Assembly (NCBI RefSeq): GCF_900182615.1
Contig: NZ_FXTE01000001.1
Span: forward strand, 186,001-250,000
Length of the DNA stretch: 64,000 bases
Source of the DNA: Ruegeria faecimaris
GTDB taxonomy: Bacteria; Pseudomonadota; Alphaproteobacteria; Rhodobacterales; Rhodobacteraceae
Direction of reading: 5' to 3'
The notes beneath the pieces were generated by a model. The model worked only from the letters and a program-made list of their open reading frames with translations. It searched no databases and had not been told where the DNA came from. Of the stretch, positions 21,374-46,823 are shown piece by piece (positions within the stretch are counted from its first letter, which is position 1; the number at the start of each line of letters is the position of its first letter). Position numbers and translations under genes: made by a program.

Positions 21374-21374
21374 C

Positions 21375-31759: not shown

Positions 31760-31784
31760 CTGTGTCATGCTAGAAGAAGTGAGC

Positions 31785-31818
31785 AACGGCCTCGGGGTAA
31801 CATCCGGCGGCCGTTTTT
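31785..31818 (+). terminator. Terminator-like hairpin in the GTA leader
   Basis: AACGGCC (31785-31791) pairs with GGCCGTT (31809-31815), with further inner pairs across one bulge, followed by five T. It either ends the VOC gene transcript or attenuates transcription into g1 starting from the promoter-like site 30 bases upstream. Confidence 0.65.
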
Positions 31819-31866
31819 CGTTTCTCTCGTGCGGAGAAAACTCACGCATGAGGTCAATACGCAAAC

Positions 31867-32211
31867 ATGACATTGATTACCCCGGAAGAGCGGATTTCCC
31901 AAACGGCTGACTTGTTGCAGTCACTTGAGACATCCATTCGCGGTCTGCGCAAAGCAGCGGAAGAACTGTGCAGGCAGATCGGTGCCGGGGAGGATGCAGA
32001 TATTGCTGGTGCAGGTAAGCAACTGGGACAGCTTGAGGGGCTGATCCGAAGTTGCCAAAAAGTGGAGACAAGCTTTGTCGAACAACATCACAGACAAGCC
32101 GGAATTGCCCAAGGGGGCTATGCGCTCGACCTTGATAGGGCACGATCTGAGATCGGGTGCAGGCTGGCTCGCCTCCGAGCCTGCTGTGGTGCAGGACAGA
32201 TTTCTGAGTGA
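31867..32211 (+). CDS. orfg1: GTA g1, small-terminase-like protein
   Basis: A 114-residue helical protein (ERISQTADLLQSLETSIRGL, then EELCRQIGAGEDADIAG). Position and pattern match GTA g1, which acts with g2 in packaging random host DNA into heads. GTA small terminase is thought to have lost specific DNA recognition, which would explain the lack of preferred packaging sites. The end overlaps the beginning of g2 substantially in another frame, as in other GTA clusters. It lies 206 bases after the VOC gene. Confidence 0.85.
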   Translation: MTLITPEERISQTADLLQSLETSIRGLRKAAEELCRQIGAGEDADIAGAGKQLGQLEGLIRSCQKVETSFVEQHHRQAGIAQGGYALDLDRARSEIGCRLARLRACCGAGQISE

Positions 32212-33490
32212 GATCGGGGAGGGGGGGCTGTGCGCCCTCCCTTTCCTGTTTGAGTTCTGGGCGCTGCCGCATCAATTGCCGCCAGAAGGTGACTGGCGGT
32301 CCTGGGTGATCATGGGCGGGCGCGGAGCCGGTAAGACCCGGGCCGGGGCTGAATGGGTGCGGTCTATGGTCGAGGGGTCTTTGCCGTTGGACACGGGTAA
32401 GGCGCGCCGGGTGGCTCTGCTTGGCGAGACGTTTGATCAGGTGCGCGACGTGATGATCTTTGGCGATAGTGGGATATTGCAATGCTCACCACCGGATCGT
32501 CGACCTATTTGGAAGGCGTCAGAGCGAAAACTAGTCTGGCCCAACGGGGCCGAGGCGCAGGCGTTCTCGGCCCATGATCCTGAGAGATTGCGCGGGCCGC
32601 AATTCGATGCGGCCTGGGTGGATGAGCTGGCTAAGTGGAAAAAGGCGGGCGAGACATGGGATATGCTGCAGTTTGCTTTGCGGTTGGGGGATCAGCCCCG
32701 GGTCTGTGTGACAACCACGCCGCGCAATGTGAAAGTTTTGAAGGATCTGCTGGCGTCGCCGTCCACGGTGCAGACCCATGCGCCGACCGAGGCGAACCGG
32801 GCCAATTTGGCGGGGTCGTTTCTAGCCGAGGTGCGCGCGCGCTATGCCGGTACACGGCTGGGGCGGCAGGAGCTGGATGGGGTGCTATTGTCGGATGTCG
32901 AGGGGGCGCTGTGGACAGGTTCGATGCTGGAGGCGGCGCGGGTTAGCCAAGTGCCAGAGTTGGACCGCATCGTGGTGGCGTTGGACCCGGCGGTGACGGC
33001 GGGGGCGGCTGCGGATGCTTGCGGGATCGTCGTCGTTGGAGCGTGTTTGCAAGGGCCGCCCGAGGAGTGGCGCGCCTATGTGCTGGCCGACCGGACGGTG
33101 CAGGGGGTTGGCCCGGCGGGCTGGGCGCACGCGGCGATTGACGCGATGGATGAGTTCGGGGCCGAGCGGCTGGTGGCCGAGGTCAATCAGGGCGGTCAAC
33201 TGGTGGAAGAGGTCGTGCGGCAGGTGGATCCTCTGGTCCCGTTTCGGGCTGTGCGGGCCTCACGTGGCAAGGTGGCACGGGCCGAGCCTGTGGCAGCGTT
33301 GTATGAGCAGGGGCGGGTGTCGCATGTGGCCGGGCTGGACGCGCTGGAGGAGCAGATGTGTCAGATGACCGCGCGGGGGTATCAAGGGCAGGGCTCGCCC
33401 GACCGGGTCGACGCGCTGGTCTGGGCGCTGCATGAGTTGGTTGTAGGGCCTGCGGGGGCGTATCGGCGGCCTAGGGTGCGGAGTTTGTGA
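32120..33490 (+). CDS. orfg2: GTA g2, large terminase (DNA packaging ATPase/nuclease)
   Basis: The motor that fills GTA heads. The ATPase half has Walker A in MGGRGAGKTRAGAEW and Walker B in FDAAWVDELAKW; the C-terminal RNase H-like nuclease half carries ALDPAVTAG, LVAEVNQGG and SPDRVDALVWAL with the acidic metal ligands. LPFLFEFWALPHQLP before the ATPase is a GTA-specific signature. Two starts are possible: ATG at 32120 with AAGGGGG just upstream (chosen), or TTG at 32075 with GGAG; the overlap with g1 is 92 or 137 bases. About 450-470 residues, normal for the family. Confidence 0.95.
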   Translation: MRSTLIGHDLRSGAGWLASEPAVVQDRFLSEIGEGGLCALPFLFEFWALPHQLPPEGDWRSWVIMGGRGAGKTRAGAEWVRSMVEGSLPLDTGKARRVALLGETFDQVRDVMIFGDSGILQCSPPDRRPIWKASERKLVWPNGAEAQAFSAHDPERLRGPQFDAAWVDELAKWKKAGETWDMLQFALRLGDQPRVCVTTTPRNVKVLKDLLASPSTVQTHAPTEANRANLAGSFLAEVRARYAGTRLGRQELDGVLLSDVEGALWTGSMLEAARVSQVPELDRIVVALDPAVTAGAAADACGIVVVGACLQGPPEEWRAYVLADRTVQGVGPAGWAHAAIDAMDEFGAERLVAEVNQGGQLVEEVVRQVDPLVPFRAVRASRGKVARAEPVAALYEQGRVSHVAGLDALEEQMCQMTARGYQGQGSPDRVDALVWALHELVVGPAGAYRRPRVRSL

Positions 33491-33609
33491 GGATAAAAAA
33501 AGGCGGAGAGCGGCGGTTGAAGGACTGATCGCGGTCCGAAGTGACGTAGCCAGCGATTTATGCTAGGAATACACCCTTTGCGACCACAGGGTCGGGGAGG
33601 GATTTCGTA

Positions 33610-34422
33610 GTGTCTACAAGTGACAAAAACTTCACCGGCTCAATTCCAGACATTTATGATGAATTTCTGGTTCCATTGATTTTCGAATCTTATGCTGCAG
33701 ACTTGGCAAAGAGAGTCGCTGATACCAAACCCAAAGCTGTTTTGGAGACCGCCGCGGGTAGCGGAGTAGTAACACGTGCGTTGGCCCCGCTGCTGAGCGA
33801 CGAAATTCGTTATGTGGTTACTGATTTAAATCAACCGATGTTGGACAGAGCGTCAACGCAGCAACCGAAAGCCAATCGAATAGAATGGAAGCAGGCGGAT
33901 GCGTTGGCGTTGCCCTTTGAGACAAATACATTTGACGTTGTCTGTTGCCAGTTTGGGGTGATGTTTTTTCCTGACAAAGTAGCTGGTTACAAGGAAGCCC
34001 TTCGTGTTTTGAAGGATGGCGGGTGTTTTATCTTCAATGTTTGGGACAGTATCGAAGAGAACGAGTTTGCGCATTGCGTGACGAAGACGGCATCTCGGTT
34101 TTTCCCGGAAGATCCCCCAGTGTTTTTAGCAAGAACACCCCATGGGCACGGCAATATTGATTCAATTGTCGATGATCTTAAGGAAGCTGGTTTTTCGGAT
34201 ATCGAAACACTGACCATTTCCGAGCAAAGCCGAGCGAGCAATCCGCAAGCTCCGGCAGTGGCTTACTGCCAGGGGACACCGCTTAGAAATGAGTTGGAAG
34301 AACGTGCTGCGGGCTCATTGACTGAAATTACAGACGCCGCCGCCGCCGACATCGAAAAGCTGTTTGGTAAAGGGCCGGTGTCCGGCAAAATTCAGGGGCA
34401 TGTTTTTCTTGCGAGACCGTAA
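33610..34422 (+). CDS. Class I SAM-dependent methyltransferase, inserted in the GTA cluster
   Basis: A 270-residue Rossmann-fold methyltransferase. Motif I is VLETAAGSGVVTRAL (about 45-59), motif II region VVTDLNQPMLDRA, then ADALALPF, FDVVCCQFGVMFFPDKV and ALRVLKDGGCFIFNVW. The substrate cannot be told. It starts with GTG at 33610 after GGGGAGGG. It lies between terminase and portal, where known GTA clusters have no such gene. Its composition differs sharply: bases 33661-33720 contain 25 G+C of 60, against 41 of 60 in the portal gene at 34741-34800. It has its own spacers, 119 bases before and 171 after. Recent acquisition is inferred. It could be cargo, a host gene or a modifier of packaged DNA. 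Confidence 0.88.
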   Translation: MSTSDKNFTGSIPDIYDEFLVPLIFESYAADLAKRVADTKPKAVLETAAGSGVVTRALAPLLSDEIRYVVTDLNQPMLDRASTQQPKANRIEWKQADALALPFETNTFDVVCCQFGVMFFPDKVAGYKEALRVLKDGGCFIFNVWDSIEENEFAHCVTKTASRFFPEDPPVFLARTPHGHGNIDSIVDDLKEAGFSDIETLTISEQSRASNPQAPAVAYCQGTPLRNELEERAAGSLTEITDAAAADIEKLFGKGPVSGKIQGHVFLARP

Positions 34423-34593
34423 ACGCCAAATTGATTTTTCTACCCACTCTATTCGCTTCTGCGTTGTGAATTAGTAAGAATTCCAACCCGTTGCCCTACC
34501 CCCGTACGTTCTATTCCCGAGGCATAAACTTCTCTGCGTCATAACTCCTTTCAACAAGCCGGACACAGCGGCGACAGAAAGGAGCATCTGGAC

Positions 34594-35757
34594 ATGGTAT
34601 TCGATTTCTTGCGTCGTGGAGCGGCAGAGGAAGCGCCCGAAGCAAAGGCAAGTGCAGCCGGACCCGTGGTTGCATGGCAAACCGGTGGGCGCGTGGCGTG
34701 GAGCCCTCGGGACACGGTATCGCTGACGCGGACGGGGTTTTCGGGGAACCCGGTGGGGTTTCGCTCGGTCAAGCTGATTGCCGAGGCGGCGGCGGCGTTA
34801 CCTTTGGTGCTGCAGGATCAGGCGCAGCGGTATGAGACGCATCCGATCCTGTCCCTGATGCGGCGTCCTAATGCGGCGCAGGGACGGGCAGAGTTGATGG
34901 AGGCCTTGTTCGGGCAGTTGCTGCTGTCGGGCAATGCCTATGTTGAGGCTGTGCAGGCCGAGGAAGGACTGCCGGTTGAGCTGCATGTGCTGCGATCCGA
35001 TCGGATGAGCGTGGTGCCGGGAGCGGATGGCTGGCCCAAGGCGTATGATTACGCTGTGGGCGGCAAGAAACACCGGTTTGCGGCGGAAAATATCTGTCAT
35101 ATCAAGTCGTTCCACCCGCAAGATGATCATTACGGGTTCTCGCCGATGCAGGCGGCGGCGATGGCGATTGATGTGCATAACAGCGCGTCGCGTTGGTCAA
35201 AATCGCTGCTGGACAATGCGGCGCGGCCTTCGGGGGCGCTGGTCTGGAAGGGCGGTGATGGCCATGGAGTTATGGCCGAGGACCAGTTCCGGCGTCTGTC
35301 CGATGAGATTGAGCAGAACTATCGCGGGGCGCGGAATGCTGGTCGTCCGATGGTTCTGGAAGGGGGGTTGGATTGGAAGCCGATGGGCTTTTCGCCCTCG
35401 GACATGGAGTTTCAGAAGACCAAGGAAGCCGCCGCCCGCGAGATCGCGCTGGCCTTTGGGGTCCCGCCGATGCTGCTGGGGATACAAGGCGACGCGACCT
35501 ATTCGAACTATCAGGAGGCCAACCGGGCGTTCTATCGCCTGACCGTGCTGCCCCTGGTGACGCGGGTGGCGGCGGCGGTGTCGGAGTGGCTGGCGGGTTT
35601 TTCCGGTGAGGAATTGGTGCTGAAGCCCGATCTGGATCAGGTGCCTGCGCTGTCGGCGGAACGGGACGCGCAATGGGCGCGGGTCAATGGGGCCGAATTC
35701 CTGAGCGATGCCGAAAAGCGCGCCTTGCTGGGGCTGCCGGAGCGTGCGGATGGCTGA
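34594..35757 (+). CDS. orfg3: GTA g3, portal protein
   Basis: An HK97-type portal of 387 residues forming the dodecameric DNA gate of the head. Typical stretches are FSGNPVGFRSVKLIAEAAAA, PLVLQDQ, RPNAAQGRAELMEALFGQLL, GNAYVEAV, SPMQAAAMAIDVHNSASRWS and GVPPMLLGIQGDATYSNYQE. The ATG at 34594 follows AAAGGAGCATCTGGAC. It begins with a short Ala/Glu-rich leader after MVFDFLRRG. Its stop overlaps the start of g3.5 by eight bases. Neighbouring g2 is displaced by the methyltransferase insertion. Confidence 0.96.
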   Translation: MVFDFLRRGAAEEAPEAKASAAGPVVAWQTGGRVAWSPRDTVSLTRTGFSGNPVGFRSVKLIAEAAAALPLVLQDQAQRYETHPILSLMRRPNAAQGRAELMEALFGQLLLSGNAYVEAVQAEEGLPVELHVLRSDRMSVVPGADGWPKAYDYAVGGKKHRFAAENICHIKSFHPQDDHYGFSPMQAAAMAIDVHNSASRWSKSLLDNAARPSGALVWKGGDGHGVMAEDQFRRLSDEIEQNYRGARNAGRPMVLEGGLDWKPMGFSPSDMEFQKTKEAAAREIALAFGVPPMLLGIQGDATYSNYQEANRAFYRLTVLPLVTRVAAAVSEWLAGFSGEELVLKPDLDQVPALSAERDAQWARVNGAEFLSDAEKRALLGLPERADG

Positions 35758-35968
35758 AGGATATCCGCCATTCGATTGCGCGCCAGGCTTGCGGCTGGCC
35801 GCGCATGAGCGGGTGGCCGAGATCCAGCATGAACATCTGTGCAGGCGGCTGGATCAGATCGAAGAGATGATGGAGCGGCTGGAGAGGCGGTTGTGGCTGA
35901 CGGTGTATGGCGTGGCAGCGGTGATCCTGGCGCAGGCGTTTCAGTCATTCCTTTCAGTAACACCATGA
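35750..35968 (+). CDS. orfg3.5: GTA g3.5, head formation protein
   Basis: A 72-residue protein starting MAEGYPPFDCAPGLRLAAHE, with a central coiled-coil-prone stretch (RRLDQIEEMMERLERRL) and a C-terminal hydrophobic segment (TVYGVAAVILAQAFQSFL). Position between portal and protease and the short length match RcGTA g3.5, which is needed for head formation. The start overlaps the end of g3 (ATGGCTGA), indicating coupled translation. The hydrophobic end suggests transient membrane contact, which is inference. Confidence 0.8.
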   Translation: MAEGYPPFDCAPGLRLAAHERVAEIQHEHLCRRLDQIEEMMERLERRLWLTVYGVAAVILAQAFQSFLSVTP

Positions 35969-35994
35969 ATTCAGCAGGTTACATGGAGAAGATT

Positions 35995-36540
35995 ATGGAT
36001 TTGGAGCATAAGTTCGCACGGTTCGGAGAGGGCCTTTCGGTGACCGAGGACGCGGTGATCGAAGGTTATGCCAGCCTGTTTGGACAGGTGGATCAGGGCA
36101 GTGACGTGGTGCAGAAAGGTGCGTATCGCGGTTCCCTTGAGGGGCTGGCTACAGCGGGCCAAAGGGTCAAGATGCTGTGGCAGCACGATCCGGCGCAACC
36201 CATCGGGGTTTGGGACGAGGTGCGCGAGGACGACCGGGGCCTGTGGGTCAAGGGCCGTCTGCTGAAAAGCACGCAAAAGGGCCGCGAGGCGGCCGAGTTG
36301 ATCCGGGCGGGCGCAATGGATGGCCTGTCGATTGGCTATCGTACCAAGCGCGCCGTGAAGAATGACAAGGGCCAGCGGGTCCTGACCGAACTGGAGCTGT
36401 GGGAGGTGTCGCTGGTGACGTTCCCGATGCTGCCCAGTGCGCGGGTGGCGGCAAAGGGGGTGGACCCCGAGGCCGAGAACACCTGGCGCAGTATTGCCGA
36501 GGTGTTTGATCACGCCCGGCAGGAACTGGCGCGAACCTAG
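35995..36540 (+). CDS. orfg4: GTA g4, prohead protease
   Basis: A caudoviral prohead protease (HK97 gp4 / U35 family), about 181 residues, that trims the capsid protein during head maturation. GYASLFGQVDQGSDVVQKGA, the catalytic His in LWQHDPAQPIGVW, and AGAMDGLSIGYRTK with the catalytic Ser, followed by LWEVSLVTFPMLPSA, are the family blocks. Starts at 35965, 35983 and 35995 are all possible; 35995 has GGAG six bases upstream and gives MDLEHKFARF, the usual GTA N-terminus. The frame stays open upstream to 35839 through g3.5, which I take as chance. Confidence 0.92.
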   Translation: MDLEHKFARFGEGLSVTEDAVIEGYASLFGQVDQGSDVVQKGAYRGSLEGLATAGQRVKMLWQHDPAQPIGVWDEVREDDRGLWVKGRLLKSTQKGREAAELIRAGAMDGLSIGYRTKRAVKNDKGQRVLTELELWEVSLVTFPMLPSARVAAKGVDPEAENTWRSIAEVFDHARQELART

Positions 36541-36575
36541 CGCGCCGAAACCTCACCCCCAAAAAGGAAGTGCTG

Positions 36576-37754
36576 ATGAGCAAGACCGAAACCCCGGCCT
36601 TGACCGGAGAGGGTGTGCCCCTGGTTCAGGAGGTGAAGCAGGCGATGACTGGCTTCGTGAACGAATTCAAGGGCCTCAAGGCTGAAGTTAAGACAAAATT
36701 GCAACAGACAGAAGAGCGACTGACCATGCTGGATCGTAAATCAACCATCGCGGCACGCCCGCATCTTGCGGCCTCAATCGAGGACGGCGCACCGCATCAG
36801 AAGGCCTTTGATGCCTATGTGCGTTCGGGTGAGGATGACGGCCTGCGTGGTCTTGAGATGGAGGTGAAATCCCTCTCGAGCGCTGTGAACAGTGACGGTG
36901 GGTACCTGATTGACCCGCAAACCGCCGAGATCATCAAATCGGTGCTGAAATCTACGGCCTCTATCCGCTCGATTGCTTCGATCGTAAATGTCGAGGCGAA
37001 CTCGTTCGATGTTTTGATCGACCACACGGATGTCGGTGCGGGCTGGGCAGATGAAAATGCTGCGGCGAGCGAAACCAGCACCCCGTCGATTGACCGAATC
37101 TCGATCCCGCTGCACGAGTTGAGCGCACTGCCCAAAGCCTCGCAGCGACTGCTGGATGACAGCGCGTTCGATGTCGAGGGTTGGCTGGCCGGCCGTATCG
37201 CGGACAAGTTTGCACGCGCCGAGGCCTCGGCCTTTATCAACGGCGACGGTGCGGACAAACCCAAGGGTATTCTGAACCACGCCAAGGTCGACAACGATGT
37301 CTGGGATTGGGGTAACATTGGTTATATCCCCACCGGCATCGATGGCGGTGTCGAGGCGGATGCCATTGTGGACGTGGTTTATGCGCTGGGTGCGCAGTAC
37401 CGGGTCAACGGGACCTTCGTGATGAACTCGAAAACTGCTGGTCTGATCCGCAAGCTGAAAGACAGCGATGGCCGCTTCTTGTGGTCGGACGGTCTGGCTG
37501 CGGGTGAGCCGGCACGTCTGATGGGGTATCCGGTGCTGATCGCCGAAGATATGCCGGATGCGGGAACCGACAGCTTTTCGATTGCTTTCGGTGACTTCCA
37601 GGCGGGCTATACCATCGCCGAGCGTCCGGACCTGCGCGTATTGCGCGATCCCTTCAGCGCCAAACCGCATGTTCTGTTCTATGCGACCAAGCGCGTCGGC
37701 GGCGATGTCAGCGACTTTGCTGCGATCAAACTCGTGAAATTCGGCACCGCCTAA
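36576..37754 (+). CDS. orfg5: GTA g5, major capsid protein
   Basis: An HK97-fold capsid protein of 392 residues. Residues 1 to about 100 form the helical scaffolding (delta) region (VKQAMTGFVNEFKGLKAEV), removed by g4 in maturation. The capsid core follows: GGYLIDPQTAEIIKSVLKST, PLHELSALPKASQRLLDD, EASAFINGDGADKPKGIL, NSKTAGLIRKLKDSDGRFLW and GDFQAGYTIAERPDLRVLRD. The start ATG at 36576 follows AAGGAAGTGCTG. A structured 171-base spacer separates it from g6; this is the only large gap between structural genes apart from the methyltransferase insertion. Confidence 0.97.
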   Translation: MSKTETPALTGEGVPLVQEVKQAMTGFVNEFKGLKAEVKTKLQQTEERLTMLDRKSTIAARPHLAASIEDGAPHQKAFDAYVRSGEDDGLRGLEMEVKSLSSAVNSDGGYLIDPQTAEIIKSVLKSTASIRSIASIVNVEANSFDVLIDHTDVGAGWADENAAASETSTPSIDRISIPLHELSALPKASQRLLDDSAFDVEGWLAGRIADKFARAEASAFINGDGADKPKGILNHAKVDNDVWDWGNIGYIPTGIDGGVEADAIVDVVYALGAQYRVNGTFVMNSKTAGLIRKLKDSDGRFLWSDGLAAGEPARLMGYPVLIAEDMPDAGTDSFSIAFGDFQAGYTIAERPDLRVLRDPFSAKPHVLFYATKRVGGDVSDFAAIKLVKFGTA

Positions 37755-37925
37755 AGCGGGCTGAATCCCGGGGGGCCTTCGCCCCTCGGGGCGGCGGGCA
37801 CGGGTCGGGGTGAGACCCCTGCGTTGTCTAGCTGCTCCCCTCCGTCCGAGCAACGTGGGGCGGCGCGTGCCCGTCAATTCCTGAAGTTACGGCCCCGGAG
37901 GGGTCCGAGATTGCGGAGTGAATGG
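37755..37925 (+). other. Structured GC-rich spacer between g5 and g6
   Basis: No supported gene. Several complementary segments suggest a folded RNA: GGGCACG (37796-37802) with CGTGCCC (37866-37872), enclosing GGGTC...GACCC and a second stem CCCC-TG-CGTTG with CAACG-T-GGGG. There is no T-tract, so it is not a plain terminator. It follows the most highly needed product, the capsid, so a role in mRNA stability or dosage is possible. Confidence 0.45.
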
Positions 37926-38525
37926 ATGATGTTGATCGAAGAAACCGCCATCGCGGATGCGGCGCTGCCGGTGGATCAGTTCAAGGCGCATTTGAGGCTG
38001 GGAACAGGCTTTACTGGTGCCGGCGTGCAGGATGAAGTGCTCAAGGGCTTCTTAAGGGCGGCGATTGCTGCGATTGAGGCGCTTACCGGGAAGGTACTTA
38101 TCACGCGTGAGTTTTCCTGGAGCCTTAACAGTTGGCGTGACCCTGCGGGCGAAGTGCTGCCTGTGGCGCCGGTCTCGACCATCAATACGGTCAGTTTGAC
38201 GGATGCAGCGGGTACTGAAACCGCCGTTTCGTCTGACAGATACAGATTGGATCTCGATAGCCAGCGCCCGCGGATACGCCCTGCCGGGGCTGTCTTGCCC
38301 GCTATTTCGACCGGCGGATCCGTGAAGATCGCGTTTATCGCCGGTATTGTCGGGGAATGGTCAAGCTTGCCGGCAGATCTTGGGCAGGCGGTTCTGCTGT
38401 TGGCCGCGCATTACTATGAATACCGGGATGAGACCACGTTGGGTGCCGGCTGTATGCCCTTTGGCGTGACCAGCCTGATCCAACGCTATCGTGTGGTTCG
38501 TTTTGGTGCAGGGGTGGCCCAATGA
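37926..38525 (+). CDS. orfg6: GTA g6, head-tail connector (adaptor)
   Basis: A 199-residue helical connector related to phage gp6-like adaptors. MMLIEETAIADAALPVDQFK starts the protein; FLRAAIAAIEALTGKVLITR and LGQAVLLLAAHYYEYRDE are characteristic of the fold that docks below the portal. The ATG at 37926 follows GGAG seven bases earlier; a longer frame to 37824 runs through the structured spacer and has no family sequence. It is linked to g7 by an ATGA overlap. Confidence 0.9.
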   Translation: MMLIEETAIADAALPVDQFKAHLRLGTGFTGAGVQDEVLKGFLRAAIAAIEALTGKVLITREFSWSLNSWRDPAGEVLPVAPVSTINTVSLTDAAGTETAVSSDRYRLDLDSQRPRIRPAGAVLPAISTGGSVKIAFIAGIVGEWSSLPADLGQAVLLLAAHYYEYRDETTLGAGCMPFGVTSLIQRYRVVRFGAGVAQ

Positions 38526-38860
38526 AGGCGCCCCGGCTGAATAGAAAACTGTTGCTTGAATCCTCCGTGCGCACCGCTGATGGCGCCGGTGGGTATCTGG
38601 AAACATGGGTCGCCTTGGGCTCGGTTTGGGCCGAAGTCACTGCGCGCAGCGGGTCAGAGCGAAATGTTGCAGGGTTGCCGGTTTCGCGTGTCGGCTACCG
38701 GATTGTGGTTCGTGGCGCACCCGAAGGATCGACCATGCGCCCCTCGCCGGATCAGCGGTTTGCGGAAGGCACACGCCGTTTCGTTATCCGCGCCGTCGCC
38801 GAGCGGGACCTGCGCGGCCAGTACTTGATCTGCTTTGCGGATGAGGAGGTGGCGGTATGA
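38522..38860 (+). CDS. orfg7: GTA g7, head-tail closure (stopper) protein
   Basis: A 112-residue protein of the phage head-tail joining family (SPP1 gp16 / Bacteriophage SPBc2-like). RKLLLESSVRTADGAGGYLE, WVALGSVWAEVTARSGSE and the final RFVIRAVAERDLRGQYLICF are typical. It probably closes the channel beneath g6. Its start overlaps the g6 stop and its stop overlaps the g8 start, both as ATGA. Confidence 0.9.
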   Translation: MKAPRLNRKLLLESSVRTADGAGGYLETWVALGSVWAEVTARSGSERNVAGLPVSRVGYRIVVRGAPEGSTMRPSPDQRFAEGTRRFVIRAVAERDLRGQYLICFADEEVAV

Positions 38861-39270
38861 GCTATGGTGTTTCAGCCGCGTTGCAGGCGGCAATTTACCA
38901 GAAATTGTCGGAAGACACACAGATCAGCACTCTTTCAGGTGGAGCGATCTATGACGCCGTTCCAGCGGGTTCAGTTCCGCAAACCTATGTGACGCTGGGC
39001 CCGGAAGAGGTGCGCGATGCCTCGGACCGGTCGGGGACCGGTGCGGTGCATCGGTTCACGGTGTCCGTCGTGTCCGAAGCTGCCGGGTTCGGTGCAGCAA
39101 AAACGTTGGCGGGGGCGGTTTGTGACGCCCTGGACAGTGCGGGGCTGACCCTGGATCGAGGCCGATTGGTCGGGCTGTGGTTCGAACGTGCCTCGGCCCG
39201 TCGGACCGGAACGGGCGGCGCGATCCGCCAGATCGACCTGAAATTCCGCGCCCGCGTGGAAGACGATTAA
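38857..39270 (+). CDS. orfg8: GTA g8, tail terminator (DUF3168)
   Basis: 137 residues, DUF3168 family. ALQAAIYQKLSEDTQISTL is the usual start; GAIYDAVPAGSVPQTYVTLG and the terminal RQIDLKFRARVEDD complete the compact fold that caps the tail tube at the head interface. ATGA overlap with g7 and 20 bases before g9. Confidence 0.9.
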   Translation: MSYGVSAALQAAIYQKLSEDTQISTLSGGAIYDAVPAGSVPQTYVTLGPEEVRDASDRSGTGAVHRFTVSVVSEAAGFGAAKTLAGAVCDALDSAGLTLDRGRLVGLWFERASARRTGTGGAIRQIDLKFRARVEDD

Positions 39271-39290
39271 GCAATCAACGGAGAGAGCAA

Positions 39291-39704
39291 ATGGCTGCCC
39301 AGAACGGAAAAGACCTGTTGGTCAAAGTGGATATGAACGGCTCAGGCCTGTTCGAGACCATTGCGGGGCTGCGTGCCACGCGGGTCAGTTTCAACGCGGA
39401 AAGTGTCGATGTGACCAGCCTGGAAAGCCAGGGTGGCTGGCGCGAGCTTTTGTCTGGCGCGGGGGTCAAGTCGGCCTCGATTTCGGGCTCGGGCGTATTC
39501 AAGGACGCGGGAACGGATGAACGCGCGCGACAGCTGTTCTTTGACGGTGAGACACCGGGTTTCCAGATCATCATCCCGGATTTCGGGATTGTTGAGGGTG
39601 CGTTCCAGGTGACCGGCATCGAATATGCGGGCTCTCACAATGGCGAAGCGACCTATGAAATGAGCATGGCAAGCGCCGGTGCTCTGACCTTTACGGCGCT
39701 GTAA
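39291..39704 (+). CDS. orfg9: GTA g9, major tail (tube) protein
   Basis: A 137-residue tube-forming protein (phage major tail protein, TP901-1 type). QNGKDLLVKVDMNGSGLFET, then AESVDVTSLESQGGWRELL, and FQVTGIEYAGSHNGEATYEM near the C-terminus are family motifs. Hexameric rings of it build the GTA tail. GGAGAGAGCAA precedes the ATG. It is immediately followed by g10. Confidence 0.93.
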   Translation: MAAQNGKDLLVKVDMNGSGLFETIAGLRATRVSFNAESVDVTSLESQGGWRELLSGAGVKSASISGSGVFKDAGTDERARQLFFDGETPGFQIIIPDFGIVEGAFQVTGIEYAGSHNGEATYEMSMASAGALTFTAL

Positions 39705-39706
39705 CG

Positions 39707-40027
39707 ATGGCCAATCCGTGGACAGGAGAGGTGGCACTGACCATCGATGGAGAGCAACGGGTTCTGAAGCTGACCTTGGGCGCTTTGGCGGAACTGGAAC
39801 GGGAATTGGGCACAGGGACACTGGTTGAACTGGTGCAAAGGTTCGAAGGCGGCGCCTATTCCAGCGGTGATGTTCTGGCGCTTATCGTCGCCGGGCTGCG
39901 GGGGGGCGGGGCCAATGTCACCCGCGCCGATCTGCTGAGTGCCGAGATTGAGGGCGGGCCAATGCACGGCGCGTGTGCTGCGGCCGAGTTGTTGGCAAGG
40001 GCCTTCATGGTGCCGGGGCAGGCATGA
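39707..40027 (+). CDS. orfg10: GTA g10, tail assembly chaperone
   Basis: A 106-residue protein of the gene-transfer-agent g10 family (GTA TAC 1 type). GEVALTIDGEQRVLKLTLGA, LAELERELGTGTLVELVQRF and DVLALIVAGLRGGG are characteristic. With g10.1 it should coat the tape measure before tube assembly. It starts two bases after the g9 stop and overlaps g10.1 by ATGA, replacing the programmed frameshift that many phages use here. Confidence 0.9.
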   Translation: MANPWTGEVALTIDGEQRVLKLTLGALAELERELGTGTLVELVQRFEGGAYSSGDVLALIVAGLRGGGANVTRADLLSAEIEGGPMHGACAAAELLARAFMVPGQA

Positions 40028-40233
40028 GCGGGTTCGACTGGCCCGCATTGATGCGGGCCGGATACCTCAGCCTACGCCTGACACCGGATCAATTCTGGAG
40101 CCTTACCCCGGCCGAGTTGCGGCTGATGCTGGGGCATGGCGCGGGCATGCCTTCGATGAACAGAATGGGTTTGGATGCGTTGCTGACGGCCTATCCGGAC
40201 AAGACAATAGGAGAGCGTGATGACGGATCGTAA
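40024..40233 (+). CDS. orfg10.1: GTA g10.1, second tail assembly chaperone
   Basis: A 69-residue protein, MSGFDWPALMRAGYLSLRLT then PDQFWSLTPAELRLMLG, matching the small phage tail assembly chaperone family seen in all GTA clusters of this type. It overlaps both neighbours (g10 by four bases, g11 by 14), so the three are translated as a coupled block. Confidence 0.88.
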   Translation: MSGFDWPALMRAGYLSLRLTPDQFWSLTPAELRLMLGHGAGMPSMNRMGLDALLTAYPDKTIGERDDGS

Positions 40234-40882
40234 CGGGTTGGAAGACCTGCAGGAGCGGGGCGAGGCGCTTGGCGACTCGTTGGGTGATGCGGCGTCGATG
40301 GCCGCGGCATTTGATGGGCAGATGAAGCGCATCAAAGCAGCCTTTGAGGAAACGGGCAAGGATGTTGCAACGCTGGAGCGTGGCATGTCCGGTGGCCTGC
40401 GACGGGCGTTCGATGGAGTCGTGATGGACGGAATGAACCTGTCCGATGCGCTGGACGTTTTGAAGAACTCGATGATCCGCACCGCTTATTCTGCTGCGAT
40501 CAAACCGGTCACGGATCATTTCGGCGGCCTTCTAGCCAATGGGATCGGAGGTTTTGTGAAGGGCATTCTTCCTTTTGCTGACGGCGGCAGCTTCAGCCAA
40601 GGACGGGTGATGCCCTTTGCCAACGGTGGAGTGATCAGCGGTCCAACCACGTTTCCAATGCGTGGCGGCACCGGGCTGATGGGCGAGGCTGGCCCCGAGG
40701 CCATCATGCCGCTGGCCCGCGGTACCGATGGGAAGTTGGGCGTGCGCATGTCTGGCGGCGGCTCTGCGGTGAACGTGGTGATGAACATCACGACCCCGGA
40801 CGTGCAAGGTTTCCGTCGAAGCCAAAGCCAGATCGCGGCCCAGATGAGCCGCGCGCTGGGCCGTGGCAATCGCAATAAGTAG
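40220..40882 (+). CDS. orfg11: GTA g11, tape measure protein
   Basis: At 220 residues this is a very short tape measure, in keeping with the short GTA tail. A helical N-terminal half (LEDLQERGEALGDSLGDAAS, then MKRIKAAFEETGKDVATLER) leads to a Gly-rich hydrophobic segment (FGGLLANGIGGFVKGILPFA) and the conserved FADGGSFSQGRVMPFANGGV region. ATG at 40220 is chosen over GTG at 40217. It overlaps g10.1. Confidence 0.92.
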   Translation: MTDRNGLEDLQERGEALGDSLGDAASMAAAFDGQMKRIKAAFEETGKDVATLERGMSGGLRRAFDGVVMDGMNLSDALDVLKNSMIRTAYSAAIKPVTDHFGGLLANGIGGFVKGILPFADGGSFSQGRVMPFANGGVISGPTTFPMRGGTGLMGEAGPEAIMPLARGTDGKLGVRMSGGGSAVNVVMNITTPDVQGFRRSQSQIAAQMSRALGRGNRNK

Positions 40883-40897
40883 ATCAGGGAGCAGACC

Positions 40898-41530
40898 ATG
40901 AATTTCCACGAGGTGAGATTTCCGGCCAGCCTGAGTTTTGGTTCGGTCGGTGGGCCCGAGAGGCGCACGGATATTGTGACGCTGGCGAACGGGTTCGAAG
41001 AGCGCAATACCCCCTGGGCGCATTCGCGGCGTCGCTATGATGCCGGTCTGGGTATGCGATCCTTGGATGACATCGAAACGTTGATCTCGTTCTTCGAGGC
41101 GAGGCAGGGACAGATGTTTGGATTTCGCTGGAAAGACTGGTCCGATTTTAAATCTGGTGCGGCTACGGGCGAAGTTGCCCAAGGCGACCAGATCATTGCG
41201 CAAGGTGATGGCGTAGCGACAGAATTCCAGTTGGTAAAGACCTATTCCTCGGGTGGATTCAGTTATGTAAGGCCGGTCGTCAAACCCGTATTGGGAACCG
41301 TCCGCGTGGGCGTCGAGCAGGATGAGATGCGTGAAGGTGTCGACTTCGAGGTGGATCTGAACTCGGGGTTGGTCACGTTCTATTCGCCTCCGCCTGAACG
41401 GGTTGATATCACCGCCGGCTTTGAATTCGATGTGCCAGTGAGGTTTGACACCGACAAGATCCAGACAAGTGTCGCGAGTTTTCAGGCAGGGGACGTTCCG
41501 AACGTGCCAGTGGTCGAGGTGCGTGTCTGA
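40898..41530 (+). CDS. orfg12: GTA g12, distal tail protein (DUF2460 / TIGR02217)
   Basis: A 210-residue Dit-like protein at the start of the baseplate. MNFHEVRFPASLSFGSVGGP, RRTDIVTLANGFEERN, YDAGLGMRSLDDIETLISFF, and RWKDWSDFKS are family signatures. Ends VPVVEVRV with the stop overlapping the ATG of g13 by one base. Confidence 0.94.
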   Translation: MNFHEVRFPASLSFGSVGGPERRTDIVTLANGFEERNTPWAHSRRRYDAGLGMRSLDDIETLISFFEARQGQMFGFRWKDWSDFKSGAATGEVAQGDQIIAQGDGVATEFQLVKTYSSGGFSYVRPVVKPVLGTVRVGVEQDEMREGVDFEVDLNSGLVTFYSPPPERVDITAGFEFDVPVRFDTDKIQTSVASFQAGDVPNVPVVEVRV

Positions 41531-42417
41531 TGGCTGGTGACAAACAGGCACTGCAGGCCCATCTGCAGAGCGGTCTGACAACGACCTGTCGGTGTTGGGC
41601 GATTACGCGCACAGACGGTGTTCAGTTTGGCTTTACCGACCATGACCTGAAGCTGAGCTTTGAAGGCCTGGACTTCAATGCAAGTTCGGGTCTGACGGCG
41701 GCCGCGATCGAGCAGGCAACGGGGCTGTCCATTGATAACTCGGAAGCAATGGGTGCGTTATCGGATGTCGCAGTAACCGAAGAGGATATCGAATCCGGTC
41801 GCTTCGACGGGGCCGAGGTGCGGGCATGGCTTGTGAACTGGGCCGATCCATCGCAGCGAATGTTGCAGTTCCGCGGATCAATCGGTGAATTGCGACGGGC
41901 AGGTGGGGCTTTTCATGCCGAACTGCGGGGCCTGACAGATAAGTTGAACCGACCTTTGGGCCGGATTTACCAAAAGCCCTGCACAGCCGTGTTGGGCGAC
42001 AAGGCGTGCGGGTTCAACACCGATGCCCCGGGATACTCGGCCGAAGCTGAGATCGTCGGTTTGACGGGTGGCAGTATTTTGCAGCTGCGAGGGGCGGAAA
42101 CTCACCTTGAGGCATGGTTCGAACGTGGGCGGCTCGATGTGCTGACAGGCCGCGCGGCTGGGCTGTGGGGGGCGGTCAAGAAGGACCAAAAGACTGACGA
42201 TGGCCGTTCGATCGTTCTGTGGTCTGCAATCAGCGGAGGATTGGCCGAGGGCGACAAGGTAAGGCTGACCGCGGGTTGTGACAAGCGCATGACGACCTGT
42301 CGTGTGAAGTTCAATAATATCAATAATTTCCAAGGCTTTCCTGACCTGCCTTCCGAAGATTGGGTGATGGCCGTTCCCAAGAACAACGGGGCGAACCGCG
42401 GAGGCAGCAGACGATGA
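41530..42417 (+). CDS. orfg13: GTA g13, baseplate hub protein (DUF2163 / TIGR02218)
   Basis: A 295-residue hub. RCWAITRTDGVQFGFTDHDL, AEVRAWLVNWADPSQRMLQF and the C-terminal FNNINNFQGFPDLPSED are diagnostic. Four cysteines (KPCTAVLGDKACGF and GCDKRMTTC) are placed like a metal or iron-sulfur site, consistent with the cluster-binding hub described for RcGTA. One-base overlap with g12 and ATGA overlap with g14. Confidence 0.94.
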   Translation: MAGDKQALQAHLQSGLTTTCRCWAITRTDGVQFGFTDHDLKLSFEGLDFNASSGLTAAAIEQATGLSIDNSEAMGALSDVAVTEEDIESGRFDGAEVRAWLVNWADPSQRMLQFRGSIGELRRAGGAFHAELRGLTDKLNRPLGRIYQKPCTAVLGDKACGFNTDAPGYSAEAEIVGLTGGSILQLRGAETHLEAWFERGRLDVLTGRAAGLWGAVKKDQKTDDGRSIVLWSAISGGLAEGDKVRLTAGCDKRMTTCRVKFNNINNFQGFPDLPSEDWVMAVPKNNGANRGGSRR

Positions 42418-42860
42418 CCCCGATAAAGCAAAGCATTGTTGATGAGGCCCGAAGCTGGCTTGGTACCCCCTATGTTCATCAAGCTTCTGTCAAAGGGGTC
42501 GGAACAGACTGTCTGGGCCTGCTGCGCGGCGTATGGCGGGCGGTGCTTGGGCACGAACCTGAGGCCGTCCCGATCTATAGCATGGATTGGTCTGAACCAC
42601 AGGGCGAAGAGCGTATGTGGGCCGCAGCACGCCGCCATCTTATCGAGAAAGACCCGGCATGGTTTTCTGTCGGAGACGTGTTGCTGTTTCGTATGCGGGA
42701 AAGTGGCGTTGCCAAGCATTTGGGGATTGTCAGCACCTGTCGAGACATCCCTCGGTTCATTCACGCTTATTCCGGACATGGCGTTGTTGAAAGCGCCCTG
42801 AGCGACCCGTGGCGACGGCGGGTTGTTTCTTGTTTTGAGTTCCCCACGGAGGATATCTAG
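42414..42860 (+). CDS. orfg14: GTA g14, NlpC/P60 cell-wall peptidase
   Basis: A 148-residue tail-tip peptidase expected to open the peptidoglycan of the recipient. The catalytic Cys33 is in GVGTDCLGLLRG and the His at about 102 in VAKHLGIVS. EARSWLGTPYVHQAS is the usual start. The next gene, g15, starts directly after its stop. Confidence 0.94.
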   Translation: MTPIKQSIVDEARSWLGTPYVHQASVKGVGTDCLGLLRGVWRAVLGHEPEAVPIYSMDWSEPQGEERMWAAARRHLIEKDPAWFSVGDVLLFRMRESGVAKHLGIVSTCRDIPRFIHAYSGHGVVESALSDPWRRRVVSCFEFPTEDI

Positions 42861-45800
42861 ATGGCGACGATATTACTGTCTGCGGCGGGTGCCGCTGTTG
42901 GCGGGGCCATTGGCGGGACGGTTGCGGGGCTGTCCACGGCAGTTATCGGCCGTGCCATTGGTGCCACTCTTGGGCGTGTCATCGACCAGCGTTTGATGAG
43001 CCAGTCGGTCATGGGCAGCGGCAGCGAAGTTGTAGAAACGGGCCGATTGGACCGTTTTCGCCTTACTCAGACGGGCGAGGGCGCCGCTGTCGCCAACATC
43101 TTTGGTCGGATGCGTGTCGGGGGGCAGGTTATCTGGGCTTCGGATTTTCTGGAAGCCCGCAGCACCAGCTCTACCACGCAATCGGTTGGGGGTGGCAAGG
43201 GATCCCCCAAGCAGCCCGAGGTTACAACGACCACCAACAGCTACAGCTATTCAGTTTCATTAGCGGTCGCGTTGGGCGCGGGGCAAATATCTGACGTGCC
43301 GCGTGTCTGGGCAGATGGCGAAGAGATTGAGCGCAGCAGTTTGAATATGCGCGTCTATCCTGGCACCGACGATCAGCTGCCCGATCCGTTGATCGAAGCA
43401 ATCGAAGGTAGTGGAAATGTCCCGGCCTATCGTGGCACCGCCTATATTGTGATCGAAGATTTGAAGCTGGGCGCTTTTGGAAACCGCGTCCCGCAGTTCT
43501 CGTTCGAGGTCGTGCGGCAAGAGCAGCCTGGTTTGCCTGATACCGAAAATTCCTTGTCACGTATTGTACGAGGCGTGGCGCTAATGCCTGGGACCGGTGA
43601 ATATGCACTGGCGTCCCAGCAGGTGAATTACACAAAAGGCCGCGGCCGCAGTTGGGCGGCCAATGTGAATTCAACCTCTGGTTTGCCTGATCTCGTGACG
43701 TCCACACAAGCCTTGAAAAGTGAACTTCCGGGCTGTGAAGCCGCCTCTTTGGTTGTGTCCTGGTTCGGAAGTGATCTGCGATGCGGTCAATGCAAGATAC
43801 AACCAAAGGTTCTGCAAAATGGTATCGAAGGCAAAAATATGTCCTGGGGTGTCGCGGGGCTGACAAGGGCAACCGCCCAGATCGTTCGTCAGGAAAATAA
43901 CGAGCCCGTCTATGGCGCGACACCAGCGGACGCATCGGTCATTCAAGCGATCCAACACCTTAAGCAAGAGGGGAAGCGGGTCATGTTCTACCCGTTTATC
44001 CTGATGGATCAGATCGGTGGAAACGGATTGCCCGATCCGTGGTCAGACGCCAGCGATCAGCCCCACCTTCCCTGGCGCGGTCGCATCACCCTGAGCGTTG
44101 CGCCTGGGCGGGACGGGTCTCCGGACCAGATGGCTGAGGCCGATGTTCAGGTGTCCGATTTCTTTGGTCAGGCGCGAGCGGATGATTTTGTTATCGGAAA
44201 CGGCACGGTTTCCTATTCTGGCCCGCAGGAATGGGGGTTGTGCCGATTTATTCTTCACTACGCTGCCTTGTGTAAGGCGGCAGGTGGGGTGGACTCCTTC
44301 TGTATCAGTTCGGAAATGCGTGGTCTTACCCAGATTCGTGGCCTAAACGGATTTCCGGCCGTTGAGCAGCTGCGCGTTTTGGCAGGGCAAGTGCGTAGTA
44401 TTCTGGGGCCAGACACAAAGATCGGTTATGCGGCGGACTGGAGCGAGTATTTCGGCTACCAGCCAAATGATGGCAGTGGGGATCGCTACTTCCACCTCGA
44501 TCCGCTTTGGGCGGATGACAACATAGATTTCGTCGGTATCGACAACTACATGCCTCTGTCCGACTGGCGGGACGGTGAAGATCACGTGGATGCGGATGCC
44601 GGCGCAAAATCCATCTACGATCTTTCCTATCTGCTTGGGAACATCGAAGGTGGCGAAGGCTATGACTGGTATTATGCCTCGCCCGAAGAAGAGGCGGCAC
44701 AAATCCGCACACCGATCGAAGACGGCACCCATAACGAGCCGTGGATCTGGCGTTATAAGGACGTTCGCAACTGGTGGTCACAACCGCATCACGAGCGAAT
44801 CAATGGTGTGCGCAGCGATAACCCGACTCTTTGGTTGCCAGAGTCCAAGCCAATCTGGTTCACTGAGCTCGGTTGTGCGGCAGTAGACAAAGGCACCAAT
44901 CAGCCCAACAAGTTTCTGGATCCTAAATCTTCAGAATCCGGGTTGCCGAAATATTCAAACGGGTTTCGGGACGACTTTCTGCAGGCGCAATACCTCAGGG
45001 CGGTCCTTGGCTATTGGTCGGACGCAGATATCAATCCAGTTTCATCCAGCTATGGTGGCCCGATGGTGGACGTGTCCAATGCCTATGTCTGGGCGTGGGA
45101 TGCGCGGCCCTATCCGACCTTTCCAAACCTGCGCAGCCAATGGAGCGATGGGGCAAACTATGCCCGCGGCCATTGGCTTAATGGGCGTTCCGGCTCACGA
45201 ACGCTGGCCTCTGTTGTGACCGAACTTTGCCATGCAGCCGGCGTTACCGAGATTGATGTCTCGGGTCTTTACGGTACCGTTCAGGGCTATGCGGTTGAAC
45301 AGGTTTCGGATGCCCGTTCGGCATTGCAACCGCTCATGCTGCGGTATGGTTTCGATGCGCTTGAACGCGAAGGAAAGCTGATCTTTCAGATGCGGGATGG
45401 CGCACGTGCCCTGACCCTGAATGAAGAGCAGTTGGCCATCACTTCGGACATTGACGGACACGTGGAATATCGTCGCGAGGCTGAGGCGGAAATATCTGGC
45501 CGTGTCAGGCTGCGCTTTGTTCAGTCTGATGCTGACCATGAAATATCCTCGGAAGAGGCTGTGTTGCCTGATGATGAAACCCATTCGGTATCGGTAAATG
45601 AGATGCCGTTGTCCATGACGCGGGCCGAGGGGCGTCAAACGGTGGAACGCTGGCTGAGTGAGGCGCGTGTCTCGCGTGAAACGGCCAGGTTTGCATTACC
45701 GCCTTCGCATTTGAATGTCGGGGCAGGGGATGTTGTGCGGCTGGTCAGTGGTGGGCAGGACGCGCGCTATCGCATTGACAGGCTTGAACAGGCCGAAATG

Positions 45801-46823
45801 CAACTGGCCGAGGCTGTCAGGATCGAACCCGGCGTTTACACACCGCCAGATGCCCCCGCTGATGAAGTTACAGCGAAGCCATTTGTCGCTCCGGTGCCGG
45901 TGCTGCCGGTATTCTTGGACCTGCCTCAGATCCCCGGTTCCGAAGTGCCGCATGCGCCATATCTTGCGGTTGCAGCAGACCCTTGGCCAGGAAGCGTTGC
46001 GGTGTATGCCGCATCAAGCGATGAGGATTACGCGTTGCATCAGGTGATTACAGGGCAGGCCATAATAGGCTTCACCGAAAGCCCGATGCGAAGGGCCAGT
46101 GCCGGACTTTGGGACGAGGGCGATGCCTTGCAGGTCAATCTGGTAGATGGCGTCCTGGAGTCCCGTCCACGGTCTGCCTTGTTAAACGGCGCAAATCTTG
46201 CAGCGATTGGCGACGGAACGCCCGGCAATTGGGAGGTGTTCCAGTTCGCGGATGCTGCTCTGCAAGAGGAAGGTGTCTATACCCTATCCGGGCGGCTGCG
46301 CGGTCAGCTGGGGACAGATGCAATCATGCCCGATCTCTGGCCCGAAGGATCAATGTTCGTGTTGTTGGACGAACGTGTCTTCCAGACAGGGTTGTTGCGG
46401 TCGGAACGTGGCCTGACCAAACATTATCGCATTGGCCCTGCAACCAGAGGGTATGAAGATCCCTCTTACGAGCATCTGGTCGAGGCCTTTGAAGGCAATG
46501 GTTTGCGGCCCTATGCCCCCTCTCATCTTCGCGTGCAGCAATCCAGCTCGAGGGACGTGTTCTCATGGGTGCGGCGGACACGTCTGGATGGCGATGACTG
46601 GTCCGGGCTGGATGTGCCGTTGAATGAAGAAACCGAAGCCTACCTTGTTCAGGTCCGGCAGAATGGTAGCCTGATCCGCGAAGAGGTCGTTGCCCAGCCG
46701 GATTGGCACTATACGTCATCCATGAAGGCCACGGATACTGTTACAGGGTCTTATGAGGTGTCGGTTTCGCAGATATCTGCGGCTTACGGACCCGGATTGC
46801 CTGTCAGGCTGCAGGTCGGATAG
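42861..46823 (+). CDS. orfg15: GTA g15, baseplate megatron (host-specificity) protein
   Basis: A 1320-residue protein, the largest of the cluster. It begins with a Gly/Ala-rich hydrophobic segment (LLSAAGAAVGGAIGGTVAGL) that may insert in the recipient membrane. A GTA-TIM-barrel glycosidase-like domain follows (about 430-720: RGLTQIRGLNGFPAVEQLRV, DYMGIDNY-like VGIDNYMPLSDWRDG, IWFTELGCAAVDKGTNQPNK). A phage tail-3 domain and C-terminal beta domains end the chain. It is thought to pass DNA through the outer membrane and to contact the peptidoglycan. The frame is intact and the length is normal for GTA g15. Confidence 0.95.
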   Translation: MATILLSAAGAAVGGAIGGTVAGLSTAVIGRAIGATLGRVIDQRLMSQSVMGSGSEVVETGRLDRFRLTQTGEGAAVANIFGRMRVGGQVIWASDFLEARSTSSTTQSVGGGKGSPKQPEVTTTTNSYSYSVSLAVALGAGQISDVPRVWADGEEIERSSLNMRVYPGTDDQLPDPLIEAIEGSGNVPAYRGTAYIVIEDLKLGAFGNRVPQFSFEVVRQEQPGLPDTENSLSRIVRGVALMPGTGEYALASQQVNYTKGRGRSWAANVNSTSGLPDLVTSTQALKSELPGCEAASLVVSWFGSDLRCGQCKIQPKVLQNGIEGKNMSWGVAGLTRATAQIVRQENNEPVYGATPADASVIQAIQHLKQEGKRVMFYPFILMDQIGGNGLPDPWSDASDQPHLPWRGRITLSVAPGRDGSPDQMAEADVQVSDFFGQARADDFVIGNGTVSYSGPQEWGLCRFILHYAALCKAAGGVDSFCISSEMRGLTQIRGLNGFPAVEQLRVLAGQVRSILGPDTKIGYAADWSEYFGYQPNDGSGDRYFHLDPLWADDNIDFVGIDNYMPLSDWRDGEDHVDADAGAKSIYDLSYLLGNIEGGEGYDWYYASPEEEAAQIRTPIEDGTHNEPWIWRYKDVRNWWSQPHHERINGVRSDNPTLWLPESKPIWFTELGCAAVDKGTNQPNKFLDPKSSESGLPKYSNGFRDDFLQAQYLRAVLGYWSDADINPVSSSYGGPMVDVSNAYVWAWDARPYPTFPNLRSQWSDGANYARGHWLNGRSGSRTLASVVTELCHAAGVTEIDVSGLYGTVQGYAVEQVSDARSALQPLMLRYGFDALEREGKLIFQMRDGARALTLNEEQLAITSDIDGHVEYRREAEAEISGRVRLRFVQSDADHEISSEEAVLPDDETHSVSVNEMPLSMTRAEGRQTVERWLSEARVSRETARFALPPSHLNVGAGDVVRLVSGGQDARYRIDRLEQAEMQLAEAVRIEPGVYTPPDAPADEVTAKPFVAPVPVLPVFLDLPQIPGSEVPHAPYLAVAADPWPGSVAVYAASSDEDYALHQVITGQAIIGFTESPMRRASAGLWDEGDALQVNLVDGVLESRPRSALLNGANLAAIGDGTPGNWEVFQFADAALQEEGVYTLSGRLRGQLGTDAIMPDLWPEGSMFVLLDERVFQTGLLRSERGLTKHYRIGPATRGYEDPSYEHLVEAFEGNGLRPYAPSHLRVQQSSSRDVFSWVRRTRLDGDDWSGLDVPLNEETEAYLVQVRQNGSLIREEVVAQPDWHYTSSMKATDTVTGSYEVSVSQISAAYGPGLPVRLQVG

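Follow-up and report, generated by a model that had tools for sequence, protein, structure and literature searches.

A methyltransferase gene as the occupant of a probably exchangeable slot between the terminase and portal genes of Ruegeria gene transfer agent clusters

Introduction

Gene transfer agent (GTA) clusters are generally regarded as conserved units that carry no cargo themselves, and the R. capsulatus cluster (RcGTA) provides their detailed gene order. In phages, morons are variable genes that lie between two conserved neighbours. Among GTA-like clusters, a lysozyme gene is found between terminase and portal in Agrobacterium and Rhizobium, and a DNA-cytosine methylase gene in the cluster of Rhodopseudomonas palustris (PMC11409702). 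A report of a variable slot in the GTAs of Ruegeria was not found in the open-licence literature, as far as its partly available texts extend, which is weak evidence of absence.

We analyzed a stretch of 64,000 nucleotides from Ruegeria faecimaris (hereafter, the window) that holds a cluster of the RcGTA type of Rhodobacterales. It shares with this type the presence of g1, the terminase gene g2, the portal gene g3 and the genes up to g15 on one strand. It differs in that a slot, probably an exchangeable one, separates g2 from g3 in Ruegeria, and in that one Ruegeria species has the two halves of the cluster on separate contigs. As in the clusters of PMC11409702, a non-structural gene is found inside the cluster, in the lysozyme case at the identical junction. 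The genes described there, however, have phage homologues, given as a sign of phage ancestry, whereas the contents of the Ruegeria slot vary by species and extra DNA is present in every measurable genome of the genus. The slot also resembles chromosomal insertion hotspots between core genes, as the available part of PMC5635113 presents them, in holding variable genes between conserved neighbours, and resembles both these and morons in its low G+C, use of either orientation and rapid turnover. It is set apart from these systems by being flanked by two packaging genes of a domesticated phage-like particle, and no integrase was found among 26 slot ORFs scanned with Pfam.

Results

The methyltransferase gene

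The features of the locus in the window are as follows.

31867..32211, + strand: g1, probable small terminase, matched before g2 in 10 loci holding g2; small terminase is the role given for RcGTA g1 in the available part of PMC7947584
32075..33490, + strand: g2, large terminase (Pfam Terminase_6N/6C), bordering the slot on the left with its 3' end, the part that is duplicated in three other slots
33491..34489, no strand: cargo slot, from the g2 stop codon to the conserved g3 leader, here with the methyltransferase gene and its flanks; between most species homology is lost right after g2, and the length is 554-2968 bp (leader included) in 38 of 38 genomes
33610..34422, + strand: class I SAM-dependent methyltransferase (UbiE/Methyltransf_11 type), the slot occupant, from Pfam, NCBIfam and PHROG matches, an alignment of 17 homologues and purifying selection
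34490..34593, + strand: conserved g3 leader, a GTTGC-N8-CCGTACG block followed by a hairpin predicted in the RNA across the ribosome site of g3, from 38 Ruegeria and seven other-genus leaders aligned and from folding
34594..35757, + strand: g3, portal protein of HK97 type (Pfam Phage_portal, E 6e-94; TIGR01537 above cut-off), flanking the slot on the right
35758..46823, + strand: the remaining GTA head-tail cluster, to g15, from the ORF list, with the genes between named by order

The preliminary description of this DNA placed an intact class I SAM methyltransferase gene between g2 and g3 in the GTA direction, with spacers of 119 and 171 bases and a good ribosome site, and all of this is borne out. 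The ORF at 33610-34422 (+) starts with GTG, encodes 270 aa, contains no internal stop and is flanked by spacers of exactly these lengths, and the ribosome site reads GGGGAGGG-N8-GTG. The GTG start fits, because 17 aligned homologues start in the same column. The composition contrast that had been described is likewise exact in its counts (25 and 41 G+C of 60), and the gene as a whole has a G+C content of 49.0%, vs 65.3% for g2 and 63.2% for g3. Among 813-nt segments taken across the 64 kb at a step of 50 nt, 0.6% are as low in G+C as the gene; there are eight such segments, half of which are the gene itself. The only other low-G+C places found with these segments are at window positions 16801-17713 and 20601-21413.

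The gene shows a dN of 0.15-0.16 to its relatives in G007 and G016, with dS saturated and not computable, and these two relatives show a dN/dS of 0.12 between them. Together, these values indicate a working gene under purifying selection. Decay, which the preliminary description had already discounted, is rejected on this selection and on the intact frame. As the relatives in G007, G016 and G032 have a G+C of 50-52% and those in G025 and G028 of 63%, the low G+C belongs to a branch of the family and the GTA locus is not its cause.

All six Pfam matches of the protein are class I SAM methyltransferase models (Methyltransf_11, E 7e-19, together with Methyltransf_25, _12, _31, _23 and Ubie_methyltran). 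None of the 25 listed (of 26) NCBIfam matches reaches its cut-off; for the UbiE/MenG equivalogs, the best score is 70.6 bits (TIGR01934), vs the 158.35 required. No DNA-methylase family occurs in the Pfam matches or in the 25 of 26 NCBIfam matches listed. In a phmmer search of the PDB, the protein matches class I-type enzymes (best 1vl5, E 1.4e-10). A comparison with structures had been proposed for separating DNA from small-molecule methyltransferases. By sequence, the closest chains are methyltransferases of the UbiE/COQ5-like kind and others that act on small molecules or peptides, several having an unknown substrate. PADLOC returns the mad2 model only (residues 26-209), a match that we take for the shared methyltransferase domain. 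Judged by its sequence, the protein looks like the small-molecule enzymes and unlike DNA methylases.

The family is large and widespread. At E 1e-3, a protein search yields at least 8000 relatives, with a length of 270 aa in most of the best 120, and a search of genome contigs confirmed 422 relatives, with 80 of the 422 loci, from alpha-, beta- and other bacteria, being kept. At E <= 1e-60, relatives are present in six of 54 Ruegeria genomes, including that of the window, and none of the other five lies on the contig of its own g2. No GTA gene was found near the relatives in the 12 loci checked, which represent 10 distinct places, and the DNA similarity to the nearest relatives hardly extends past the ORF. 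The gene is found between g2 and g3 in one of the 54 Ruegeria genomes. A core RcGTA component would occupy the same place in related GTA clusters, and the methyltransferase does so in this single genome; nor is it the case that most relatives carry the same gene there with matched composition.

This bears on the proposal that the gene serves the GTA, for instance through methylation of the packaged DNA or of a component of the particle, or through an effect on the level of production. The gene does share the direction of the GTA, with a good ribosome site and an intact frame, and the protein weakly matches a phage family named tRNA methyltransferase in PHROG (46.7 bits). Against these stand the single occurrence at g2-g3, the different DNA held there by the other measured Ruegeria, whose longest ORF opposes the GTA in 25 of 37, the DNA-methylase families missing from the Pfam and the 25 (of 26) listed NCBIfam matches, and the 12 loci (10 distinct places) in which a relative has no GTA gene nearby. 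We give the proposal a chance close to negligible. The modification of packaged DNA and the control of particle production, both raised in the preliminary description, do not fit a protein that resembles small-molecule methyltransferases by sequence in a place where other Ruegeria carry other DNA. Given its occurrence at g2-g3 in only one of 54 genomes, a role in the GTA was rejected, and a GTA function is unlikely. The protein would instead be an ordinary accessory enzyme that acts on a small molecule, not a GTA component.

The g2-g3 junction in Ruegeria and other genera

Our Ruegeria set comprises 54 genomes, 38 of which have g2 and g3 on one contig. The remaining 16 are G036, where the two genes are on two contigs, 13 genomes with a partial g2 and no g3 at 1e-60, and G004 and G005, in which g2 is not found at 1e-60. 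G002 is among the 38, as its slot is still measurable even though only the first 225 residues of g3 were matched. In all 38, g2 and g3 are separated by 554-2968 bp (leader included; median 1015.5), the insertion point is identical, and the G+C of the slot is below that of both flanks. The methyltransferase had been seen as a special cargo gene of this strain; as extra DNA is present at the same site in all 38 measured Ruegeria, this is not supported. Compared across relatives, the site is shared and the gene is not, its place usually being taken by another gene, more often antisense to the GTA.

For the family, we considered 150 genomes, 134 of which have g2. Of these, 13 with partial or divergent matches were omitted, leaving 121; three lack g3 and five have it on another contig, and one of the resulting 113 genomes is that of the window itself. 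In the 112 genomes of other genera, the median gap is 124 bp, which leaves no room for a gene and agrees with the usual order, as described before, in which nothing lies between g2 and g3. The gap exceeds 400 bp in seven of the 112 and is at least 554 bp in six.

The rest of the cluster is stable. The ORFs downstream of g3 continue to g15 (1320 aa), and the g3-g15 spacing is 7081-7148 bp (range 67 bp, sd 14) in 35 Ruegeria genomes, these being the 39 with g3 after removal of G046 (contig break) and of G032, G048 and G002 (partial g15). In 34 slots from the same 35 genomes, slot length has an sd of 399 vs this 14, so the variability is confined to the g2-g3 junction and is not cluster-wide. The junction thus has the features of an insertion hotspot, being occupied in 38 of 38 genomes by about 24 types of cassette between conserved flanks, with a stable g3-g15 part. 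The slot itself is well supported.

The cluster can also be split at this place. In G036, contig C20 holds g1-g2 and contig C41 holds g3-g15, each part far from the contig ends, and the leader is still attached in front of g3. In G145, of another genus, g2 and g3 are also on different contigs, but g3 is 545 nt from a contig end, making this the weaker case. These split clusters suggest that the g2/g3 junction acts as a seam of the cluster.

Borders of the slot and the g3 leader

Homology between species ends at the g2 stop codon, in most species being absent from the first base after g2, and restarts at the GTTGC of a g3 leader of ~104 bp. An empty site is found in G116 and G084, where the leader GTTGC begins 2 nt past the g2 stop; these belong to the other genera that are nearest by g2 identity (82% and 81%). 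In G079, of a further genus, an insert of 5853 bp ends at the same g3 leader. The leader motif, searched as a regular expression, is present in 33 of 38 Ruegeria and in six of 20 other-genus leaders, and the remaining five Ruegeria leaders have the GTTGC with small changes further on.

Upstream of g1, two GTTGC boxes occur in 15 of 16 loci in the right orientation and TTGAC follows in all 16, while a CGNNCG element precedes the boxes in about 11 of 16, as judged by eye; 14 other loci, in the opposite orientation, differ in sequence. In the leader of g3, the order of GTTGC and CCGTACG is the reverse of that in the g1 upstream region. Taken on its sequence, the leader is probably the promoter of g3 and is perhaps under the same regulator as g1. 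In R. capsulatus, binding of the activator GafA at the g1 promoter is described, and the accounts of this binding mention no internal promoter in the parts of them that are available. A scan around the slot gave one promoter-like site, where 0.7 are expected, and two terminator-like sites on the minus strand, where 1.9 are expected, and thus no promoter or terminator above chance. This weighs against the reading, as separate transcription of the cassette and g3 is then suggested only by the conservation of the leader. Rfam has no match at gathering scores in window positions 30000-48000.

In the leader, at window positions 34548-34581, the predicted fold pairs part of the ribosome site, CUUUC with GAAAG, and a similar pairing is predicted in one more Ruegeria and in three other genera. 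The folding energies of five sequences have z values of -3.7 to +0.2 against shuffles, so that the fold stands out in some of them only.

Slot contents and turnover

Pfam was run on 26 slot ORFs, many of which have no match. The types recognized are cation-efflux (CDF) transporters, short-chain dehydrogenases, SMI1/KNR4 (SUKH) proteins, a luciferase-domain protein, an adenylate/guanylate-cyclase domain, an isochorismatase, a Hint-domain protein, an Imm33-like protein, a DUF2971 protein and a second type of methyltransferase, RMNT_CmcI. Most slots have one ORF > 130 aa. The longest ORF is in GTA sense in 12 of 37 slots and antisense in 25, whereas the slot of G014 has no ORF of 60 aa; these counts took the longest ORF of at least 60 aa in each slot by eye, and some may be chance frames. 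PADLOC, run on 10 slot proteins, gave scattered matches for three besides the methyltransferase.

Some of the cassettes are similar to components of conflict or defence systems (L058 in G053, L067 in G012, L074 in G003 and L069 in G049), with a cyclase domain similar to the Pycsar PycC models, a DUF2971 protein similar to the PADLOC candidate PDC-S31, and SUKH and Imm33-like proteins. A short-chain dehydrogenase is found at the g2-g3 junction in four Ruegeria (L076 of G020 among them), one of them scanned and the three others alike by BLAST, as well as in a different genus (L225, G095). Among the inserts of other genera, eight of the 11 listed ORFs were scanned and matches were obtained only for G183 (GntR/FCD), G095 (dehydrogenase) and G126 (GNAT); the scanned ORFs of G079, G125 and G083 gave none.

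In the 38 genomes, we distinguish about 24 cassette types: eight recurring families, the methyltransferase and 15 other singletons. A label refers to the main ORF only, and the double or triple slots of G015, G043 and G045 have one label each. On the rpoB tree, the labels require 29 Fitch changes, vs 31.4 on average and no fewer than 28 in 500 shuffles, the lowest number possible being 23; on this single-gene tree, cassettes thus follow the species only weakly. The nearest rpoB neighbour shares the cassette family in six of the 38 genomes, and five of the eight recurring families have two carriers that are not sisters.

One reading of such diversity is a neutral junk slot, in which independent non-homologous insertions enter a permissive g2-leader junction with neither flank exchange nor use. 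The 16 of 24 labels that are seen in a single genome would fit, as would the G014 slot with no ORF of 60 aa and the same-junction inserts of at least 554 bp in six of 112 other-genus genomes. The recurrence of eight families, five with non-sister carriers, the single ORF > 130 aa in most slots, the selection values of the methyltransferase and its relatives given above and the copies of the g2 tail that directly precede cassettes, described below, speak against it, and we consider its chance of being right to be small.

Probable traces of recombination

Four extra copies of the g2 3' end are present in three slots, measuring 100 nt in G043, about 155-160 nt in G045, and 158 and 105 nt in G015, where the slot also holds a partial copy of the leader. 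All of these relics keep the g2 register and stop no more than about 10 nt from the g2 stop codon, and cassette DNA comes next. The DNA after the relic matches the first bases past g2 of other genomes, those of G044 and G050 in the case of G043 and those of G014 in the case of G045. The second copy in G015 is up to 92% identical to the g2 of other species vs 87% to its own, while the difference for the G043 relic is small (92% vs 90% to its own g2). As each relic stands before another cassette, they point to recombination by way of the flanks. Most simply, incoming DNA, carrying a g2 tail, cassette, leader and g3, would have recombined on the g3 side and been joined without homology on the other side. 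No relics were found at E 1e-3 in 35 of the 38 slots; the short length of the relics (just about 100-160 nt) and their presence in three of 38 genomes weigh against flank exchange.

The relics also raise the question of a site-specific element, in which non-autonomous integrative cassettes recognise the 3' end of g2 and bring their own copy of it, with the integrase encoded elsewhere, in the manner of elements that enter a gene at its 3' end and restore it. That the relics are g2 3'-end copies ending at or near the stop codon and that 38 of 38 genomes have one insertion point agree with it. The four left ends of the relics, however, all differ (about 100, 105, 155-160 and 158 nt), which is not expected from a fixed att core; no integrase or transposase family is found in the 26 Pfam-scanned slot ORFs, many of them without any match, and 35 of 38 slots show no relic at E 1e-3. 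An element of this kind is very improbable, and one with fixed ends was rejected on the differing left ends.

Recent exchange is not apparent in the flanks. The difference between the g2 tail and the rest of g2 is 1.2 points in 24 cassette-sharing pairs (1.9 when the dehydrogenase clade is removed) and 1.7 in 679 others, with an sd of 2.7. As g2 tails are no more alike in genomes that share a cassette, there is no visible sign of a recent transfer of flank and cassette together, and exchanges are either old or leave little flank. Over 703 pairs, long near-identical stretches between species are not in excess in g2/g3 (11 rows) vs rpoB (412), which is more conserved overall. A near-identical tract of 973 nt in the g2 of G043 and G046 stops before the slot, and their cassettes differ. 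Exchange through the flanks is nonetheless probable.

Deletions in the GTA cluster

Loss of the GTA is frequent in Ruegeria. In 10 of the 54 genomes, the interior from g2 to g15 is lost with the same in-frame junction, which joins g2 residue 185 to about g15 residue 671 (..AAWVDEL|GCAA..); the loci are L082-L087 and L244-L247 in Ruegeria and L250-L257 in other genera. The joined places correspond to window positions near 32621 (g2) and 44862 (g15). A single open frame of 845-848 aa is present in eight of the 10, that of G028 being longer and that of G037 broken. We read the junction letter by letter in nine Ruegeria and six other genera, and g15 is the gene joined in eight of the nine other-genus fusion loci examined. 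On both the rpoB and the g2 tree, the carriers are scattered. In the strain of the window, both places share CTGG-N5-TGAGCT, which makes repeated deletion between short similar stretches likely. With an intact frame in many lineages, the chimera could be in use. Other deletions have differing end points, at g2/g15 residues 261/19 in G008 (L089), 212/1219 in G029 (L081) and 169/1225 in G026 (L088), and G032, G048 and G002 have g3 with a partial g15.

Discussion

We consider it likely that the methyltransferase gene at present occupies a cargo slot of Ruegeria with exchangeable contents, located at a fixed point between the g2 stop and the g3 leader. The gene is probably interchangeable cargo and not part of the particle machinery. 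The point would be tolerated because g3-g15 start from their own leader or promoter, such that an insert in either orientation spares the expression of g2 and g3. Cassettes would be replaced when incoming DNA recombines homologously with the conserved g2 and g3 on either side; at times one end would be joined without homology, leaving a second g2 tail in the slot.

How the cassettes reach new genomes is a separate matter. The GTA particle of R. capsulatus carries a load of about 4 kb. As g2, a cassette of ~1 kb and g3 together measure ~3.7 kb, close to one such load, a particle could deliver a complete cassette. The slot might thus be a cargo bay that is spread by the GTAs of Ruegeria, with the particle delivering a cassette and its homology arms and overwriting the cassette of the recipient. 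We hold this to be improbable. According to the available part of PMC7947584, citing Hynes 2012, no region of R. capsulatus is packaged less than the RcGTA genes, and this counts against a spread by GTA particles. If the cargo-bay reading were true, the GTA would be a vehicle for the sole freely varying part of its own cluster.

For the genus, the changing genes at one junction form a natural record of DNA exchange at the GTA locus. The slot further suggests that the cluster has two parts, with g1-g2 expressed separately from g3-g15, and it offers a simple way to ask whether the particles move GTA-linked DNA.
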